DNA of 64,000 nucleotides, from assembly GCA_027459645.1 (NCBI GenBank), contig DAIDHQ010000008.1:1-64000 (forward strand). Direction: 5' to 3'. Numbering within the stretch: position 1 is the stretch's first letter; each line of letters opens with the position of its first letter. This DNA comes from Vulcanimicrobiota bacterium (GTDB taxonomy: Bacteria > Vulcanimicrobiota > Vulcanimicrobiia > Vulcanimicrobiales > Vulcanimicrobiaceae). Under the pieces are notes generated by a model, which saw only the letters and a list, made by a program, of their open reading frames with translations, ran no database searches and was not told the DNA's origin. This document shows, piece by piece, positions 13,850 through 54,188 of the stretch. Both the position numbers and the translations under genes were made by a program.

Positions 13850-15445
13850 ATGCTGGAATCCCACCTCGGGCGCGTCGTCGTCGCCGAACCTTTCGACGAG
13901 CGCGGTCTTACGGTTCTACGCGACGCCGGCGCGGAAGTCGTTTCCACCGTCGGCCTGCCGCGCGACGCGCTCCACCAAGCGCTCAAAGAAGCGCGCGGGC
14001 TGATCGTGCGATCCGAAACGCGCGTCGACCGGGAATTGCTCGCCTTCGCGCCCCGGTTGGAGGTCGTAGCTCGCGCCGGCGTAGGTGTCGATGCCATCGA
14101 CGTCGAGGCTGCGACGCAAGCGGGCATCGTGGTCGTCAATACGCCGAGCGCGAACACGCTGGCCGCAACCGAGCACACCTTTGCGTTGCTTCTTGCCGCG
14201 CTTCGAAACGTGCCCCAAGCGCACGCGTCCGTGCACGGCGGTGCGTGGGATAGAAAGCCCTTCGTCGGCTACGAGCTTTTCGGTAAACGGCTCGGGATCG
14301 TCGGCTTGGGGCGCATCGGCAGTAACGTCGCGTCGCGCGCACGTGCCTTTGGAATGACGGTGCGCGCTTACGATCCGTTCGTTCCTCCCTCACGTTCCGT
14401 TGCGCTCGGGATCGAACTCGTCGATTTCGACGATCTGCTTGGGACGTCGGACGTCGTTACGCTGCACGTGCCGCTTACGCCGCAAACGCGTGCGATGATC
14501 GACGCGCGCGCGCTCGCGCTCATGCGAGACGACGCGGTGCTAATCAATTGTGCGCGCGGAGGTGTCGTCGATGCAGCGGCCCTGCTCGAGACGGTACACG
14601 CCGGTCGCCTGCGTGCGGTGGCGATCGACGTCTTTCCGGAGGAGCCGCCGCCGGAGGGTTCCGCGTCTCGAGCCTTGATGGCTCATCCGCGCGTCGTCGC
14701 AACGCCGCATCTGGGCGGTTCGACGTATGAAGCGCTCGAACGCATCGCGCTCGAATTGGCGAGCGACGTCGTGCACGTACTCGGCGGCCGGCCAGCGCAA
14801 GGTGCCGTCAATGCGCCGCGTCTCTCCGGCGCCGATGCCGAACGTGCGGGCGGTTTCATCGACCTGGCATTTCGCCTTGGAGCGCTCGCGCCGCAACTTT
14901 TCGATCACGCGCTCAGAGACGAATGCGCCCTCGTGCTGGGCGGTGAAATCGAAACGCTCGACGCAGAGCCCTTCGTCGCCGCATTGCTCGCGGGCGCGCT
15001 GCCCTTCCTGACCGACCGTCGCGTGACCACCGTGAATGCAGCGGCCGTCGCTCGCGACATGGGTTTACGCGTCAACGTGTTGCGCGAACGCGGATCCGGA
15101 CCGTTTCGCGCGACCTTGACCCTTGCCGCCGGCGATCACCGCGTCGGCGGAACGGTCTTGCCGCACGGAGCCCGCATCATCGACATCGACGGTTTCGAAC
15201 TCGACGCGGTGCCCGCGGGCGTGCTGTTGCTGACGCGTCATCGCGACGTCCCCGGCATGGTCGGCCGCATCGGAACGATTCTCGGCGCGGCCGAGGTAAA
15301 TATCTCCACGATGCAAGTTGCGCGTAACGCGCGCGGCGGCGAAGCGATGATGGTGCTGGAAGTCGACCGCGACGTCGACCGAAAGAGCGTCGATGCGATC
15401 GCCGGAAGCAGCGGGATTGCAAGCGTACGCGTGCTGCGCCTGTGA
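13850..15445 (+). CDS. serA: D-3-phosphoglycerate dehydrogenase, long ACT-containing type
   Basis: NAD-dependent oxidation of 3-phosphoglycerate, first step of serine synthesis. The 531-residue protein has the substrate and Rossmann parts (residues 1-310): GIVGLGRIGSNVA, the catalytic Arg in NCARGG, Glu in DVFPEEPP and His in ATPHLGGST. An intervening ASB-type domain (about 320-450) and a C-terminal ACT domain (about 455-531, LLLTRHRDVPGMVGRIGTIL) follow, the layout of the Bacillus/Mycobacterium type inhibited by serine. It is divergent from the short aldehyde dehydrogenase with a gap of about 50 nt, and its stop overlaps the next gene as GTGA. Confidence 0.95.
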   Translation: MLESHLGRVVVAEPFDERGLTVLRDAGAEVVSTVGLPRDALHQALKEARGLIVRSETRVDRELLAFAPRLEVVARAGVGVDAIDVEAATQAGIVVVNTPSANTLAATEHTFALLLAALRNVPQAHASVHGGAWDRKPFVGYELFGKRLGIVGLGRIGSNVASRARAFGMTVRAYDPFVPPSRSVALGIELVDFDDLLGTSDVVTLHVPLTPQTRAMIDARALALMRDDAVLINCARGGVVDAAALLETVHAGRLRAVAIDVFPEEPPPEGSASRALMAHPRVVATPHLGGSTYEALERIALELASDVVHVLGGRPAQGAVNAPRLSGADAERAGGFIDLAFRLGALAPQLFDHALRDECALVLGGEIETLDAEPFVAALLAGALPFLTDRRVTTVNAAAVARDMGLRVNVLRERGSGPFRATLTLAAGDHRVGGTVLPHGARIIDIDGFELDAVPAGVLLLTRHRDVPGMVGRIGTILGAAEVNISTMQVARNARGGEAMMVLEVDRDVDRKSVDAIAGSSGIASVRVLRL

Positions 15446-16068
15446 ATGTTTACGTGGTACGCCACGGAGAAACCGATTGGAATCGTGAAGGCCGCTACCA
15501 AGGTCGGCGCGAGTCGAAGCTTACGGAACTCGGGCACGCGCAAGCGCTCGCGGTCGGGATTGCGCTCGCGGGACGGCCGATCGAGCGCATCGTATCGAGC
15601 CCGCTCGTGCGGTGCCGGGAAACGGCGCATCCCTTGTCCGAGCGCATCGGCGTCGCCGTGCACACCGACGACCGCTTGATCGAGATCGCGCACGGGACGT
15701 GGGAAGGCCGCTTGCGCGACGAGATCGCGCGCGACGAACCCGCGATGATGAAGCAATGGCGCACGCATCCCGAACGCGTGCGCTTTGCAGGAGGCGAGTC
15801 TTTGGCCGAGGTTCTCGCCCGCTGGCGGGCGTTTGCCGAATCGGTTAGCGGGGAACGCGATCTCGCGGTGGTGACGCACGACGTGCTCGTGCGCGTCGCT
15901 TTGCTCGATGCCACCGACCGTCCACTCTCGCGGTTATGGGAGCCGCGAGTCGTCAACGGCGGCTACGCGCGTTTCTCCGTCGAGAAAGGTCGTTGGCACG
16001 TGATCGAAGAGTGCGTTGACGCGCATCTCGGCGCGCTGCGGTCCGATCCGTCGGAGCAAGCACTCTGA
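15442..16068 (+). CDS. Histidine phosphatase family protein (phosphoglycerate mutase-like)
   Basis: A 208-residue member of the branch-1 histidine phosphatases: YVVRHGETDWN carries the phosphorylated His, followed by RYQGR, SSPLVRCRETA, an EIAHGTWEG motif and VVTHDVLVR with the second His. The GTG start overlaps the serA stop (GTGA), so a role near serine metabolism, for example as a phosphoserine phosphatase of this fold, is possible. It is clearly similar to the CobC-like phosphatase two genes downstream, so assignment between the two is not certain. Confidence 0.85.
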   Translation: MNVYVVRHGETDWNREGRYQGRRESKLTELGHAQALAVGIALAGRPIERIVSSPLVRCRETAHPLSERIGVAVHTDDRLIEIAHGTWEGRLRDEIARDEPAMMKQWRTHPERVRFAGGESLAEVLARWRAFAESVSGERDLAVVTHDVLVRVALLDATDRPLSRLWEPRVVNGGYARFSVEKGRWHVIEECVDAHLGALRSDPSEQAL

Positions 16069-16080
16069 GGAGGAAAACCC

Positions 16081-16650
16081 ATGGCTACCGGGACGTTTTT
16101 GACCGATGTGAAAGAACTGCGGCGCCGGGCGCGTCAGAACATGGAGCGCGGTGCCGTTACGGAGAGTTACGAGCTCGATCCGAAGAAGGTCGTCGACGTA
16201 CTCAACGCGGCGCTTGCGACCGAGATCGTGTGCGTGCTGCGCTACAAGCGCCATTTCTTCGCTGCGAAAGGGCTGAATAAAGATGCGGTCGCGGCGGAAT
16301 TCTTGCAGCATGCGAACGAAGAACAAGGACATGCGGATCGGATCGCCGAGCGCATCACCCAGTTGGGTGGTGAACCCGATCTGAATCCCGCCACGCTGAC
16401 CGCGCGCTCGCATTCGGAGTACGTCGAAGGCGACGATCTAATTTCGATGATCAAAGAAAATTTGGTGGCGGAACGAATCGCCATCGAATCCTACACCGAG
16501 ATCATCCGGTTTCTCGGCAACAAAGACGTGACGTCGCGCCGCCTGATCGAAGAGATCCTCGGGAATGAAGAAGAACACGCAAACGACATGCTGGATCTGA
16601 TCGAGAAGATCGCCGACGGCAGCAGCAACGGCAAGGGGCGAGACAGATAG
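16081..16650 (+). CDS. Ferritin-like/bacterioferritin-type protein
   Basis: A 189-residue four-helix-bundle protein. Di-iron ligand motifs are visible in pairs: ATEIVCVLRY (Glu), EFLQHANEEQGHADRI (Glu, His), then AERIAIESY (Glu) and GNEEEHANDM (Glu, His). It has the length of bacterioferritin and Dps-like relatives and would oxidise or store iron, or act as a small oxidase. GAGGAGG stands 6-7 nt before the ATG. It lies between two histidine phosphatases and just before the cobalamin genes; that placement is unexplained. Confidence 0.85.
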   Translation: MATGTFLTDVKELRRRARQNMERGAVTESYELDPKKVVDVLNAALATEIVCVLRYKRHFFAAKGLNKDAVAAEFLQHANEEQGHADRIAERITQLGGEPDLNPATLTARSHSEYVEGDDLISMIKENLVAERIAIESYTEIIRFLGNKDVTSRRLIEEILGNEEEHANDMLDLIEKIADGSSNGKGRDR

Positions 16651-17264
16651 AAATCGTCTTCGTCCGTCACGGGACGACGGAATGGAACGCGACGCGCCGC
16701 TACCAAGGGCGTAGCGACATCGAACTTTCCGACGAGGGCCGGGCGCAGGCGCAGGCCCTCGCGCTCGCGTTACGCGACGACCCTTTCGATGCCGCGTATG
16801 CAAGCGATCTGCGGCGGACGCTCGAGACGGCGCAGATTATCGCGCGGCCGCACGGCATCGAGGTGCGCGCCGATCCGCGCATTCGTGAATTCGATTTCGG
16901 TGCGTGGGAGGGCCTCACGTGGCAAGAAATCACCGAGCGGTGGCCGCAATTTCGGGATAGAGGCGGCACCGCAGCAAAGCACTATCAGCCCGAAGGGGGT
17001 GAAACGTTCGCGCAAGTCTGCGCGCGCGTGAAGGCGTTTCTCGACGATTTGCGGCGCACGAGCTTCGAACACGTCCTCGTCGTGACGCACGCGGGCGCCC
17101 TCCACGGGGTAATGGAAGTGCTGGGTGAAGCGGTCCGCGACCGTCCGAAGGATGGGCTCAGCCTCTCGTTTTCTCAGGCCTCGGTAACGCGGATCGCCAT
17201 GAATGGCGACGATGCACGGATAATCACCCTGAACGATGTCAGCCATCTCGATTCCGCCCCTTGA
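16647..17264 (+). CDS. cobC: CobC-like alpha-ribazole phosphatase, apparent ATA start
   Basis: Histidine phosphatase that would remove the 5-prime phosphate from alpha-ribazole (or cobalamin) phosphate in late B12 synthesis. Motifs: EIVFVRHGTTEWN, RYQGRSDIELSDEG, SDLRRTLETA, EFDFGAWEG and VVTHAGALHG. No ATG, GTG or TTG exists in frame before the RHG motif; the first GTG (16863) would remove the catalytic His. The codon just before E-I-V-F-V-R-H-G is ATA at 16647, overlapping the ferritin TAG stop as ATAG, which gives a family-typical N-terminus. The gene overlaps cobT by 29 nt, supporting the CobC role. Confidence 0.8.
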   Translation: MEIVFVRHGTTEWNATRRYQGRSDIELSDEGRAQAQALALALRDDPFDAAYASDLRRTLETAQIIARPHGIEVRADPRIREFDFGAWEGLTWQEITERWPQFRDRGGTAAKHYQPEGGETFAQVCARVKAFLDDLRRTSFEHVLVVTHAGALHGVMEVLGEAVRDRPKDGLSLSFSQASVTRIAMNGDDARIITLNDVSHLDSAP

Positions 17265-18288
17265 TCGCGACGCGGCCGTTGCGGCCCGCGAACGTATCGA
17301 TCAGCTCACCAAACCCGTCGGCAGCCTCGGTCAGATCGAGGATCTCGCCGAACGCCTTGCCGCCATCCACGGCGGCTTGCCGCCCGTCTATGAACGTCGT
17401 GCGATTCTCGTCGGTGCCGGCGATCACGGGATCGTCGACGAGGGCGTGAGCGCCTATCCGGGCGAGGTGACGCCGCAGATGGTTGGGGCGTTTCTGGGCG
17501 GTTTCGCGGCGATTAGTGCGTTCGCGCGGGTCGCACGAGCCGAAGTGTTCGTGGCCGATTTCGGCGTCGGACAGCCGTTGCCGGCGCACGACCGCCTGAT
17601 CGACGTCAATGTTGCGCGGCGAACGCGCAACTTCGCGCGCGAGGCGGCAATGACGGAGGTGCAGTTCCACGCCGCGCTCGATGCCGGCATCCGCGCGTTC
17701 GAGTTTCTGCGCGAGCGGGTCGATCCGCAGATTATCGGACTCGGCGAGATGGGCATCGGCAATACCACGAGTGCGGCTGCCATGATTTGCGCCTTTACCG
17801 GCGCGCAGCCCGAAGACGTCGTCGGACGCGGCACCGGCATCGATGACGACACCTTCAAGCGCAAGCTGCGCGTCGTTTCCGATGCATCGGCGGCGCTGGA
17901 AGGGATGGAGGCGAAGAAGATCGCCGCGGCGGTCGGCGGCTTCGAAATCGTCGGGCTCGCCGGAACAATTTTGGCCGCCGCGTCCGCACGCATTCCCATA
18001 CTCCTCGACGGATTTATCGTGTCGGCCGCGGCGCTTTTGGCGCAAGCGCTTTCCAACGAAAGTATCGGCTACTGCATCGCGGCGCATCGTTCGCGCGAAT
18101 CCGGCCACACCGTGGCACTGCGCCATCTGGGTCTGGTTCCGCTGCTCGATCTGCACATGCGCTTGGGAGAGGCCAGCGGCGCCGCGCTCGCGATGCCGAT
18201 CTGTGAAGCCGCGGCGCGCATGGTGCGCGAGATGAAAACGTTTGCGGAAGCCGGCGTCGCAACGGCGAACGAACCCTCGCACGCGTGA
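17236..18288 (+). CDS. cobT: Nicotinate-nucleotide--dimethylbenzimidazole phosphoribosyltransferase
   Basis: Makes alpha-ribazole 5-prime-phosphate from dimethylbenzimidazole and nicotinate mononucleotide for the lower ligand of cobalamin. The 350-residue protein has LTKPVGSLGQIE, VGAGDHGIVDEGVSAYP, GLGEMGIGNTTSAAA, GRGTGIDDD and the C-terminal MRLGEASGAALA, whose Glu is the catalytic base. It overlaps cobC by 29 nt and cobS by 4 nt (GTGA). Confidence 0.95.
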   Translation: MSAISIPPLDRDAAVAARERIDQLTKPVGSLGQIEDLAERLAAIHGGLPPVYERRAILVGAGDHGIVDEGVSAYPGEVTPQMVGAFLGGFAAISAFARVARAEVFVADFGVGQPLPAHDRLIDVNVARRTRNFAREAAMTEVQFHAALDAGIRAFEFLRERVDPQIIGLGEMGIGNTTSAAAMICAFTGAQPEDVVGRGTGIDDDTFKRKLRVVSDASAALEGMEAKKIAAAVGGFEIVGLAGTILAAASARIPILLDGFIVSAAALLAQALSNESIGYCIAAHRSRESGHTVALRHLGLVPLLDLHMRLGEASGAALAMPICEAAARMVREMKTFAEAGVATANEPSHA

Positions 18289-19001
18289 AGGCGCTGCGTT
18301 CGCTTCTCGCGGCGTTTTCGTACTTCTCGATTCTTCCGGTGCGCTCGTACGATACGGCGCCGGCCGCGGCGTCGATCGCGTGGCTTCCGCTCGTCGGAGC
18401 GATCGTGGGTGCCCTCGCCGGATCCGCGGCCTGGGGCGCGTGGCTCTACACGCATTCGCCGGTGTGGCCGCCGGCCGTCGCGTTCGCGCTGCTCGTCGTG
18501 CTGAGCGGCGGAATTCACATCGACGGCTTTTTGGACTGCTGCGATGCACTTTTCGCCAGCTTGCCGCCCCGCCGTCGATTGGACGTGCTGCACGATCCGC
18601 ATCACGGTTCGTTTGCAGTAGCCGGCATGGCGGTGCTGACGGTGTTCTGGATTGCGGCGCTCGCGCACGTTCGTCCCGATCATCTGCCCGCCGTACTTGC
18701 GCTCGTCGGTGCCACGTCGCGAACGAACGCCGTTGCTCTCGCCGGGCAGTATCCGCACGCACGCACGCGCACGGAGCAATATCCTCTGCTACGATTCGCC
18801 GCGCTGTGGTTGCTTGCGGAGATCGTCTGTGCGCCGATCGCGGGCGTGAGCTGGGCGGCGCTGCTCGCGTGCGTCGCATCGGCGCAACTGGCGGGCTGGT
18901 GGGCGTCGCGCCGTCTCGACGGCGGTCTCACGGGAGACGTGTACGGCTGGGCGATCGTCATCTCTGAAGTTGCCGCCATTGCGGCCGTTGGGCTGACGTA
19001 G
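18285..19001 (+). CDS. cobS: Adenosylcobinamide-GDP ribazoletransferase (cobalamin synthase)
   Basis: Joins adenosylcobinamide-GDP with alpha-ribazole or its phosphate to give adenosylcobalamin (phosphate), at the inner membrane. The 238-residue protein has several hydrophobic helices and the family motifs GGIHIDGFLDCCDAL (metal-binding HxDG/D..D), LHDPHHGSFAV and GLTGDVYGW near the C-terminus. The GTG start overlaps the cobT stop. cobC-cobT-cobS form the end of the pathway; upstream corrin genes are not in the window, so salvage from cobinamide is also possible. Confidence 0.93.
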   Translation: MKALRSLLAAFSYFSILPVRSYDTAPAAASIAWLPLVGAIVGALAGSAAWGAWLYTHSPVWPPAVAFALLVVLSGGIHIDGFLDCCDALFASLPPRRRLDVLHDPHHGSFAVAGMAVLTVFWIAALAHVRPDHLPAVLALVGATSRTNAVALAGQYPHARTRTEQYPLLRFAALWLLAEIVCAPIAGVSWAALLACVASAQLAGWWASRRLDGGLTGDVYGWAIVISEVAAIAAVGLT

Positions 19002-42318: not shown

Positions 42319-42839
42319 AACAACATATCGCGCTCGTCGGCTTTATGGCTGCCGGCAAATCGACGATCGGCAAGAAGCTCGCACGGAAGTTAAAGGTCGC
42401 CTTTTTTGATACCGACGATCTCGTCGTAAAAGAGCACGGCGCCGTATCGGACATCTTTTACAACGAAGGCGAGAAGCGTTTCCGCGACTACGAACATGCC
42501 GCCATCGCGCACGTTCTCGAAGACGGCGAGCCGGGCATCGTCGCGCTGGGCGGTGGAGCGCTCACGCACGAACCGACGCAGAAGCTGCTCAAGAAGCGTG
42601 CTTACAAGATCTTCATCAAGGTGACGCCCGAACAGGTTTTGGAGCGCTTGCGCAAGAGTTTGCGCGTTCGCCCGTTGCTCGGGCCGACTCCCTCGCTTGC
42701 AAAGATCAAGGATCTCTACACCAAACGCATGCCGCAGTACGCTCACGCCGACTTCGTCATCGAAGCGGACGGCATGTCCACCTCACAAATCGTCGATGCG
42801 ATCGTCGAGTGGCTGCACAAGAAGAAGATCGAGATCTGA
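42315..42839 (+). CDS. aroK: Shikimate kinase
   Basis: ATP-dependent phosphorylation of shikimate. The 174-residue product has the P-loop GFMAAGKSTIGKKLA, the shikimate-binding DTDDLV, a Walker B-like ALGGGAL, FRDYE and the lid Arg in LRVRPLLG. GTG start overlapping the aroC stop (GTGA). The end overlaps the beginning of aroB. Confidence 0.95.
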   Translation: MKQHIALVGFMAAGKSTIGKKLARKLKVAFFDTDDLVVKEHGAVSDIFYNEGEKRFRDYEHAAIAHVLEDGEPGIVALGGGALTHEPTQKLLKKRAYKIFIKVTPEQVLERLRKSLRVRPLLGPTPSLAKIKDLYTKRMPQYAHADFVIEADGMSTSQIVDAIVEWLHKKKIEI

Positions 42840-43900
42840 TCGTCAACACCGATCTGACCTATCCGGTCTGCATCGGTGACGATACCCGGCCCGCGGTGCT
42901 GTCGTTTCTGCAGCATCGTGCGCAGCCGTACGTCGTGCTTTGCGACGCCAATCCGAACGTCGTCGCGCTCGCGCGTGACATTCGCGGCGGCAAAGACTGC
43001 CTCGGCGTACTCGCGTTTACGCTCGGAGAGTCGCGCAAGCGGCTTTCCACCGTCGAGCGGGTTCACGAAGCGTTACTCGCCGCCGGGGCCGACCGCGGAA
43101 CGCTCATCGTCGGCGTAGGCGGAGGGGTGGCAAGCGATCTTTTCGGATTTGCGGCGGCCACCTACATGCGCGGCGTCCCCTACGTTCACGTCGCGACGAC
43201 GCTCGTCGCGATGGTCGATGCCGCCGTAGGCGGCAAGACCGGCGTCGATTTGCGCAAGGGCAAGAACCTCTGCGGGCTTTTCGCCGATCCCGTCGCCGTG
43301 TTCGCGAACACCGGCTCGCTCGAAACGCTGCCCTACCGTTTGCTGCGCGAAGGCCTCGCCGAAGTTCTTAAAACGGCGATCATCGAGGGCGACGAATTCT
43401 TCGATGCGATCGAGGCTCTTTCACCGCATCCGTTCTGGCGGTGGCCGTGGCTCGAGATCGTTGCGCAAGCGATCAAGGTCAAGACGATGATCGTCGCCGA
43501 CGACCGCAAAGAAGCCGGCATGCGTGAGTTATTGAATCTCGGGCACACGTTCGCGCATGCACTCGAGACCGCCAGCAACTACCGTGTCTCGCACGGCGTC
43601 GGCGTTGCGCTCGGACTACGAGCCGCAGGCCTGCTCGCTCTACGTACGGGACGCTTTTCCGAAGAAGCACATCTACGCGTGCTGGCGACGATGGCGTTGC
43701 TCGGCATGCCGTTGCGCACGCGGGTACGGGCCGGCGCAGCATTTGCAGCGATGGCGAGCGACAAGAAGCGCCGCAACGGAACGCTGCGCTTCGTTCTGCC
43801 CGTTGCGATCGGAGATGTCGAATACGGCGTCACGGTCCCCGATCGCATGGTGAAGAGCGTGCTCGCGCAGCTCACGCGATCCCCCGAAGCGACCGGGTAG
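42809..43900 (+). CDS. aroB: 3-dehydroquinate synthase
   Basis: NAD- and metal-dependent cyclisation of DAHP to 3-dehydroquinate. The product has VGVGGGVASDLFGFAAATYMRG, ATTLVAMVDAAVGGKTGVD, KNLCGLFADP, EGLAEVLKTA with the metal Glu, and NLGHTFAHALE with a metal His. GTG 42809 overlaps aroK by 31 nt and gives 363 residues; a CTG at 42836, overlapping the aroK stop as CTGA, would give the more family-like beginning IVNTDLTYPV. The choice is open. Confidence 0.93.
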   Translation: MAAQEEDRDLIVNTDLTYPVCIGDDTRPAVLSFLQHRAQPYVVLCDANPNVVALARDIRGGKDCLGVLAFTLGESRKRLSTVERVHEALLAAGADRGTLIVGVGGGVASDLFGFAAATYMRGVPYVHVATTLVAMVDAAVGGKTGVDLRKGKNLCGLFADPVAVFANTGSLETLPYRLLREGLAEVLKTAIIEGDEFFDAIEALSPHPFWRWPWLEIVAQAIKVKTMIVADDRKEAGMRELLNLGHTFAHALETASNYRVSHGVGVALGLRAAGLLALRTGRFSEEAHLRVLATMALLGMPLRTRVRAGAAFAAMASDKKRRNGTLRFVLPVAIGDVEYGVTVPDRMVKSVLAQLTRSPEATG

Positions 43901-46936: not shown

Positions 46937-48196
46937 TCAGCGCATGCCGCTGATGCCGGGGCGCACGTGCAGGGCGCTCGTCGGAAAGACCAGTTGCGAA
47001 AGAAGAAGTCCGGCGACGAGCTGAATCGCGGCGAATCCCGCATTCGCCGCGAACGTTAGCGCGCTCGAGATATTGTGCTGGAACGCAAAGAGCACGCTCT
47101 CATAGCTCAAGCTTCCCGGAACGAGGACCAACAATGCCGGCACCAGCATGACTGCTTGCGGCAAGCGGAAGAAACGAGCGGCGAGATTCGCGACGATTCC
47201 CACCAGAAATGCCGACGCGAACGCTGCGATGTTGTGCACCGGCGTTCCGGTCAGTAGATGTGAAATCAAGAGCGCGAAAAAGCACGACGCGAAGACCCAA
47301 ATGAAATCGCGCAGGCGCGAATTGAGGTCGATCGCGAGGCCGACGGCCATGAGTACCGACGCGAAGATCCACCAGCGCCCCTCGACCGCGTGCATGTGCA
47401 AGTCGCCGGTCGTTAGGAGCGACGGACCGATTACGGCGAATCCCAAAAAGGCGCCGCACGCAAGCGCGAGCAGTATCGAGAGGACGCGCCCGAGTCGCGC
47501 GACGCCGGCGACGAGATTGCTGTTCGCAAGTTCGTGCAGCGCAAGCGTCAGCGAATAGCCCGGCAGCAAGACGACGACGCCGGCGATGATCGAAATGTAG
47601 ATATTCGTCGGTCCGAAGATGTGCGCGAAGGCCGCTACGATGAGCGCGCCGACGAACGCCGCGCTCACCTCGAATAGCCTTGCCACCACGGCGTTACGGT
47701 CGGCAATAACGGCGATCACGCCCGTCGCCAATCCGATAAAGCCGGCGACGGTGATCTCGCGAACGCCGGCGCCGAGCAAGATGCCGACCCCGATGGCGAC
47801 GAGCGCCAGCGCCGGAATCTGCCAAAACACGCTCATCGTAGGACGCGTGTCGATCGCCTCGACGCGCGCCGAGGCGGTTCGATAATCGATCTTGCCCTCG
47901 CGCAGTTCGTCGTAGACGTCGTTGAGCGAAGCGATGTTACGCAAGTTGATCTGGCCCGGCTCGAGCCGCATGATCGTCTGCGCTTGATTCAAGAACGGTC
48001 CGACGGCGATCGTGATCTGCGTCGGCAGCGCGAAGATTTGCACTTCGAGCCCGATCGCGTTCGCGACGTCGGTCAGCGTTTGTTCGAGGGCGTCGGTTGC
48101 AATGCCGGCGCGGTGCAACGCCCGTGCCATCCGCGCCAAAAAGACGGCGCGGGGGTCGTCGGCGATAGCGGCGATCGGTTCGCTTGAAGCGCTCAC
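46937..48196 (-). CDS. Threonine/serine exporter family protein (ThrE type)
   Basis: A 419-residue membrane protein. The N-terminal about 120 residues are the soluble ThrE domain (FLARMARALHRAGI, ALPTQITIAV, then YDELREGKIDYRTA), followed by about ten hydrophobic helices from residue 125, with LLPGYSLTLALHELANSN in the middle, as in ThrE with both domains (DUF1212 plus DUF3815) fused. Exports Thr and Ser by proton exchange in Corynebacterium. GTG start. Confidence 0.9.
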   Translation of the reverse strand: MSASSEPIAAIADDPRAVFLARMARALHRAGIATDALEQTLTDVANAIGLEVQIFALPTQITIAVGPFLNQAQTIMRLEPGQINLRNIASLNDVYDELREGKIDYRTASARVEAIDTRPTMSVFWQIPALALVAIGVGILLGAGVREITVAGFIGLATGVIAVIADRNAVVARLFEVSAAFVGALIVAAFAHIFGPTNIYISIIAGVVVLLPGYSLTLALHELANSNLVAGVARLGRVLSILLALACGAFLGFAVIGPSLLTTGDLHMHAVEGRWWIFASVLMAVGLAIDLNSRLRDFIWVFASCFFALLISHLLTGTPVHNIAAFASAFLVGIVANLAARFFRLPQAVMLVPALLVLVPGSLSYESVLFAFQHNISSALTFAANAGFAAIQLVAGLLLSQLVFPTSALHVRPGISGMR

Positions 48197-48212
48197 GCCG
48201 CCGATATACGCG

Positions 48213-48245
48213 CAAAAAGAAGAACCCGCCTCGTCGGCGGGTTCT
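48213..48245 (-). terminator. Terminator of rpsT
   Basis: A 10-bp perfect stem (48221-48230 with 48236-48245), 5-nt loop, and AAAAAG on the left which reads as a U-run on the minus strand. It lies 23 nt after the rpsT stop. Confidence 0.88.
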
Positions 48246-48267
48246 TTACAGGGTTGGTTCGTCGCGC

Positions 48268-48576
48268 TTATTTCTTGCGCGTCGTTTTGGCGCTGCTCTT
48301 TTTCGCGCCGCTCTTGGCCTTTGCCACGGGCGCCGCGGTCGCGCGGGCCATAGCCTTCGCCAGGCGCGATTTCTTGCGCGCCGCCTTGTTCTTGTGGATC
48401 ACGCCCGTTTTGGCGGCCTTGTCGAATTGGCTCTCGACGCTCTTCGCAAACTCGGCATCCTGCGTCGAGACAGCCTTTTTGAACACGGTCTTCAGGCGCG
48501 TCTTGACGTCCTTATTCGCGGTGGTCCGCTTGGCGGTCTGACGCGTCCACTTCTCGGCGGCTTTGATGTTCGGCAA
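48268..48576 (-). CDS. rpsT: 30S ribosomal protein S20, TTG start
   Basis: Small-subunit protein that binds the 5-prime domain of 16S rRNA. The 102-residue product reads M-PNIKAAEKWTRQTAKRTTANKDVKTRLKTVFKKA in its first half, the S20 pattern, and ends in a basic KKS/KTTRKK tail a little longer than usual. The start must be TTG at 48576: S20 begins at PNIK, and GAAGGGAG stands about 8 nt upstream. An ATG further upstream gives an unrelated extension overlapping rsgA. Confidence 0.95.
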   Translation of the reverse strand: MPNIKAAEKWTRQTAKRTTANKDVKTRLKTVFKKAVSTQDAEFAKSVESQFDKAAKTGVIHKNKAARKKSRLAKAMARATAAPVAKAKSGAKKSSAKTTRKK

Positions 48577-53181: not shown

Positions 53182-53793
53182 TTGCGACAAGCGTTAGCTG
53201 CCGGGGCATTCGCCCTTTTGCTAGCTGGGTCGACGTTCGGGATGGCGCAAGCCAACCAACAGATGACTCATAAAAATACCTCGACGTCGGTCGCGGCCGC
53301 GAAATCGGTCGATAGCCCAGACGTCGCCCAATGGACGGCCCGCCTCATCGTCAGCAGTCAGAGCCACGCCGCTAAGAGCGGCGAGATTCGCTCTTTTGCG
53401 GGCGGCGTTTTAGCGCGGACTTCAAAGATTGCCGCCCAGCTCACCCGAAGCGCGTTGCGCTTTCTTGGCGTGCCGTATGTCTTCGGCGGAACGACCTCGA
53501 GCGGTTTCGACTGCTCCGGCTACGTGCAGCACGTCTTCGCGATGCTCGGCATCGCCGTGCCGCGTACCGCCGACGCTCAATACGACGCCGGACACAAGAT
53601 CGTCGGTCCGATGCGACCGGGCGACCTGGTGTTCTTCCAGACCTACGAGCCGGGGCCGTCGCACGTCGGCATCTACCTCGGCAACGGCAAGTTCGTTCAT
53701 GCGAGCTCGCACGGGGTCATGATATCGAGCCTCTCCCAATCGTACTGGGCGCAGCGGTACATTGGCGCCAAACGGATGATCGCTCAGCGATAA
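53182..53793 (+). CDS. Secreted NlpC/P60 cell-wall endopeptidase
   Basis: A 203-residue secreted protein: signal peptide (LAAGAFALLLAGSTFGMAQA), a spacer, and an NlpC/P60 domain (about 100-200) with the nucleophile in GFDCSGYVQHVF, His in SHVGIYLG and the third residue near FVHASS. It would cut D-Glu-DAP-type peptide bonds in peptidoglycan. I chose TTG 53182, 7 nt after AAGAGGAG; the ATG at 53164 abuts the riboswitch P1 strand and has no ribosome binding site. Regulation by c-di-AMP is implied by the upstream aptamer. Confidence 0.92.
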   Translation: MRQALAAGAFALLLAGSTFGMAQANQQMTHKNTSTSVAAAKSVDSPDVAQWTARLIVSSQSHAAKSGEIRSFAGGVLARTSKIAAQLTRSALRFLGVPYVFGGTTSSGFDCSGYVQHVFAMLGIAVPRTADAQYDAGHKIVGPMRPGDLVFFQTYEPGPSHVGIYLGNGKFVHASSHGVMISSLSQSYWAQRYIGAKRMIAQR

Positions 53794-54188
53794 ACACCCC
53801 ACCACCCAACCGCGTCGCTGCGGAAGAATCGATCGCCTCGACCGCCTATCTGGTCTGGCCGCTCGCCATCTACGCAGCCCTGGCCCCCCGGCCCGACGCA
53901 TCGAATTGGTTCCGGTTCCATCTACGGCAAGCGCTGTGGTTCGGCGGGTTCACCGCCGCCGCAGCGCTTTTCGCGTTGGTGTGGCCGCTGGTCCTCAGCG
54001 TGTTCGTCGGCAACGTGGTCGCGACGCTCTGGATCTACGTCCTCGCGCTGCTGCTGGATGTTGCGCTCTTCGTCCTATGGCTCGTCCTCGCGATACGGTA
54101 TAGTCAGCGGGCTGCCCGCGGGGAGACCTTCGAAATCCCCTTCGTCGAGCGTTTTATCGCCGCGACAGGGACCGGACGGAAGAAGTAG
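53790..54188 (+). CDS. DUF4870-like small membrane protein, apparent ATA start
   Basis: About 132 residues. The frame gives EESIASTAYLVWPLAIYAALAP, RFHLRQALWFGGF, then helices through LWIYVLALLLDVALFVLWLVLAIRYSQRAARGE-like end, the DUF4870 pattern of three hydrophobic segments and an R-F-H-x-R-Q-A-L core. No ATG, GTG or TTG precedes the first helix; GTG at 53976 would delete half the domain. The codon ATA at 53790 overlaps the upstream TAA as ATAA and gives MNTPPPNRVAAEES. Function unknown. Confidence 0.72.
   Translation: MNTPPPNRVAAEESIASTAYLVWPLAIYAALAPRPDASNWFRFHLRQALWFGGFTAAAALFALVWPLVLSVFVGNVVATLWIYVLALLLDVALFVLWLVLAIRYSQRAARGETFEIPFVERFIAATGTGRKK

Follow-up and report, generated by a model that had tools for sequence, protein, structure and literature searches.

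The locus raises the question of how translation of a cobC-like vitamin B12 gene of an uncultured bacterium is initiated when no ordinary start codon precedes its catalytic motif. The window, that is, the whole stretch of 64,000 nucleotides which was analysed, is contig C8 of a draft genome (3.14 Mb in 47 contigs, 96.6% complete), and in the public collection the gene has its closest named relatives in Candidatus Eremiobacterota. Initiation at AUA 16647 is the best explanation, and on the sequence comparisons given below it is considered likely. The features of the locus are summarized in Table 1. The Rfam search gave no riboswitch near cobC. A counterpart of the second histidine phosphatase gene directly precedes cobC in some relatives.

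Table 1. Features of the cobC region, with positions in the window
Feature	Position	Strand	Basis or remark
Second histidine phosphatase gene, GTG start	15442..16068	+	
Ferritin-like gene; its stop TAG 16648-16650 overlaps the cobC start	16081..16650	+	
Shine-Dalgarno-like (SD) AAGGGG, 8 nt 5' of ATA 16647	16633..16638	+	AAAGG or AAAGGA at 8-9 nt in 5 other clade members
Proposed AUA start codon of cobC	16647..16649	+	Overlaps upstream TAG (ATAG); homologous codon ATG/GTG/TTG or ATA/ATC/ATT in orthologues
cobC-like alpha-ribazole phosphatase gene	16647..17264	+	Frame, motifs, HMM matches, orthologue start position; ATA start proposed
cobT-like gene, ATG start, overlaps cobC 3' end	17236..18288	+	Name from sequence
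cobS-like gene, GTG start	18285..19001	+	Name from sequence

The reading frame that ends at 17264 is open from 16569, following an in-frame TGA at 16566-16568. The scan of this frame from 16569 to the RHG codons (16665-16673) revealed not a single ATG, GTG, TTG or CTG, and the only AUN codons ahead of RHG were ATA 16647 and ATC 16653. The first canonical codon is GTG 16863, located 66 codons beyond RHG, and a start at this codon would lose the catalytic histidine. Stretches of 32 codons that stay open but offer no canonical start are not rare in themselves; the weight of this one comes from the conserved cobC protein which begins there and from the orthologues, which are alike. The protein matched the Pfam family His_Phos_1 (PF00300) at 1.3e-58 and, as a histidine phosphatase, carries both the RHG motif and the second catalytic histidine (VVTHAG). 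The best model was NCBIfam TIGR03162 (CobC) at 4.4e-46 and 156.5 bits, which is slightly below the equivalog cut-off of 162.9; the gene is named 'CobC-like' because this cut-off was missed, with cobT- and cobS-like neighbours alongside. Its product is close to CobC and is predicted to be a CobC-type alpha-ribazole phosphatase of the His_Phos_1 branch. Comparison with the orthologue of the same genus gave dN 0.19 against dS 1.06 (dN/dS about 0.18), indicating that the gene is under purifying selection. The preliminary description had taken the coding frame as sure and devoid of a canonical start before RHG, and the frame scan, the motifs and the HMM matches bear this out; the overlap of ATA 16647 with the previous stop, which it also described, was found to be with the ferritin TAG.

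Orthologues of cobC were collected at E<=1e-36, giving 55 among 103 genomes of the order. The codon six before RHG is canonical in most of them (ATG 10, GTG 20, TTG 1), and in 11 it is ATA (5), ATT (2) or ATC (4), together written AUH. A possible twelfth AUH orthologue is L021, having ATC with a canonical codon upstream. The remaining orthologues start at least one codon away from this position; L009, L013 and L024 perhaps start at ATA overlapping the ferritin stop. The AUA initiation proposed earlier for this gene is well supported by this comparison, which the preliminary description had asked for: ATG/GTG/TTG stands at the homologous position in 31/55 orthologues, and ATA/ATC/ATT in 11-12/55. 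The occurrence of ATA at the start position in 5/55 orthologues compares with a genome use of 0.2%. A canonical start is lacking in 17/55; eight of these 17 have a canonical codon at -3 to -1, and a start there would remove part of the strand that precedes RHG. For the control outside the phylum, a canonical codon was counted as a start if it stood at -3 or further upstream, and by these matched criteria at least 14/55 genes of the order were without a usable canonical start against 1/75 homologues outside (p 2e-5, p values being a rough guide only, as species share ancestry). The sole homologue without a canonical start among these 75, L097 from a Deltaproteobacteria MAG, has ATT behind GGAGGT as a candidate.

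In the clade of the window (six species of three genera) AUH stands at the start codon in 6/6, and the tree requires at least six changes between canonical and AUH states. Of the 11 AUH orthologues, 8 had an SD 4-12 nt ahead of this codon, as compared with 14.5% of internal codons (p 2e-5); it was absent at the expected distance in L013, L017 and L028. In L004-L006 a GTG at -3 is an alternative start. For cobC of the window, the conserved N-terminus is not compatible with any canonical start, AUH is conserved in the clade and the distance from the SD fits.

The clade pattern alone is also compatible with an internal isoleucine, since ATA, ATC and ATT are synonymous. Translation would then start elsewhere, for example at ATC 16653 (M-V-F-V-R-H-G), which is an AUN codon as well, or at an upstream non-AUG codon. 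This is unlikely, as 14 nt separate ATC 16653 from the SD, the ATG and GTG of the orthologues stand elsewhere and an upstream in-frame NUG codon is absent in the window; the internal isoleucine is disfavoured because of the SD, the lack of an upstream near-cognate codon and the ATG or GTG in orthologues. A start codon would be unnecessary if -1 frameshifting near the ferritin stop made CobC as an extension of ferritin. The relation of the two frames is indeed -1 in L002, L004, L006 and L007, but it differs in L011, L017 and L028, another gene lies upstream in L003, L005 and L112 (ending 15-44 nt before cobC), and inspection of the ferritin-cobC junction by eye showed no slippery heptamer, which leaves frameshifting highly doubtful. 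The draft state of the genome, in 47 contigs, would allow for a wrong base in the assembly, and cobC might also be decaying. Both are hardly credible, since AUH is found at the same codon in independent species, simply replacing A by G at 16649 would abolish the ferritin stop and the dN/dS ratio speaks against decay; a misread ATG, a point raised in the preliminary description, is thus very unlikely. Decoding of AUA as methionine in the lineage would make AUA starts expected, but its probability is close to nil. In the columns of 130 aligned AUA codons the other residues were I/L/V in 79% and M in 3.6%, so internal AUA is isoleucine, and the AUC, AUU and CUG starts would be left without explanation.

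With initiation at AUA 16647 as the preferred reading, the ordinary initiator fMet-tRNA would start cobC translation at this codon. The AAGGGG and the ribosomes finishing the overlapping ferritin frame would position the initiation complex; both features are observed, and we infer their use. The weak AUA start probably holds the CobC output low. From the gene arrangement, the start of cobC is probably coupled to ferritin termination in the window. The stop-start overlap (ATAG 16647-16650) is not kept in L003, L005 and L112, which have a different gene upstream with its stop 15-44 nt away and nevertheless keep ATC, ATT or ATA at the start position. Hence neither the ferritin overlap nor re-initiation at a stop is needed for an AUH start. 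The suggestion that coupled re-initiation at AUA is used in this organism therefore holds in part: the use of such starts elsewhere is supported (infC, rsfS, pth, ymdB and probably yqeK), but coupling is not required, and AUC, AUU and CUG are seemingly used too.

As the comparisons show, the cobC gene is one instance of a wider pattern in this Eremiobacterota family, which takes in infC, cobC, rsfS, pth and ymdB. These genes are SD-led or stop-overlapping and carry AUA, AUC, AUU or CUG at the expected start site, where no ATG, GTG or TTG fits. The infC gene of the family starts at AUA, AUC or AUU. The other three, rsfS, pth and ymdB, were picked because an ab initio scan flagged them, and their counts are no estimate of a genome-wide rate. 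For rsfS (TIGR00090), 27/30 have CTG (23) or ATC (4) at a spacing of 6-9 nt from GGAGG or an SD like it, and by a strict count a canonical codon is wholly absent nearby in 15/30; the genome of the window has ATC 7 nt after GGAGG. A canonical start of pth (TIGR00447) is absent within 20 codons in 22/30 of the family, as against 2 of 27 genes from 25 other bacteria (p 4e-7), and the genome of the window has ATC 8 nt after GGAGG. The ymdB gene (TIGR00282), behind an rny-like gene, has no plausible canonical start in 26/28 readable orthologues. Here NTA (N = A, C or T) usually overlaps the upstream stop, so the codon itself or just the position of the stop may matter; at the rny-ymdB junction (L254-L283) most species have ATA, CTA or TTA overlapping the stop, and in none is it clearly ATG. 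The prfA gene, which the scan had not chosen, has a canonical start in 27/30 of the same family. In L370, L374 and L376, all of one genus (g26), prfA has no canonical start and begins at CTG right after an in-frame stop.

Several further genes were noted. A yqeK-like gene (L252; contig C40 of G000, 152168-153096, + strand), which is followed by rsfS, has ATA overlapping the upstream stop (ATAG). At 53790-54188 (+ strand) a small membrane-protein ORF with a weak DUF4870 match below the cut-off lacks a canonical start close to the upstream stop, and ATA overlaps this stop (ATAA); the ORF is possibly the next case to which the preliminary description refers. Two truA-like genes of G000 (contig C22 at 8144, + strand, and contig C24 near 6529, - strand) both lack a canonical start around the expected N-terminus. 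The pth genes of two MAGs, L405 (G117) and L411 (G130), also have no canonical start. The aroB gene (42410-43900) and a ThrE-like gene (46937-48511) were rejected as start-less cases; in both, the apparent gap is an overlap with the upstream gene, and the conserved N-terminus has a canonical codon close by.

The ab initio scan covered 1.89 Mb and looked for tight gene pairs lacking a canonical start; it gave 40/747, compared with 9/144 on the GC-matched control pSymB. The similar share on the control means that the scan does not discriminate, and only the homology-based comparisons were used. Among codons overlapping TAA or TAG stops genome-wide, ATA was weakly enriched (31/131, p 0.04). In the translation machinery, an unusual initiator tRNA was rejected, as the only initiator-type gene found is normal (C1-A72, three G-C pairs, CAU), and so was an altered or missing IF3, as IF3 is present, aligns end to end with solved IF3 and looks ordinary. 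The 16S rRNA and its anti-SD were looked for in the assembly and not found.

The pattern can be compared with known systems. The infC gene, coding for IF3, is known to start at AUU, AUA or AUC in other bacteria, and this start codon serves in its autoregulation by IF3; cobC resembles infC in the conserved AUH start behind an SD but has no link to IF3. In Staphylococcus, ccpN (AUA) and cvfC1 (AUU) have conserved starts with strong extended SDs, and AUA and AUU starts in S. aureus reporters gave about 10% of the AUG output in poor medium (PMC13009471). The likeness of cobC to these genes lies in a conserved start of AUA/AUU type with an SD, whereas its SD is short compared with that of ccpN, its start can overlap the upstream stop and, in Eremiobacterota, the feature extends to several housekeeping genes of one lineage. 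CUG makes up 0.024% of bacterial starts (PMC11497404), yet rsfS of the family appears to be CUG-started, with CTG at SD spacing in 23/30 orthologues. Termination-reinitiation is known at ATGA and TGATG overlaps (PMC6728339); the cobC junction has the same 4-nt overlap geometry, seen here as sequence, but is formed by ATA with TAG and not by ATG with TGA.

In the literature search, Eremiobacterota and start codons were named together in a single paper, which deals with photosynthesis evolution. To our knowledge, non-canonical bacterial starts come from a handful of genes, while in this one lineage at least five gene families appear to have them, in some cases over dozens of species. Judging from these comparisons, the Eremiobacterota lineage most likely employs non-canonical starts unusually often, and the AUA start of cobC is more interesting within this pattern than alone. 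There is about an even chance that the ribosomes of the lineage have a relaxed start-codon check, with regular SD-led or stop-coupled starts at AUA, AUC, AUU and CUG, and perhaps at any stop-overlapping NUA, across essential genes, the initiator tRNA and the IF3 sequence being ordinary. Each case predicts fMet at a named codon. If true, the choice of start codon would be less fixed than gene finders assume, and start-less frames like that of cobC would be shortened or omitted by standard gene finders in the genomes of this group. The lineage would then be a natural system for how initiation fidelity is set.
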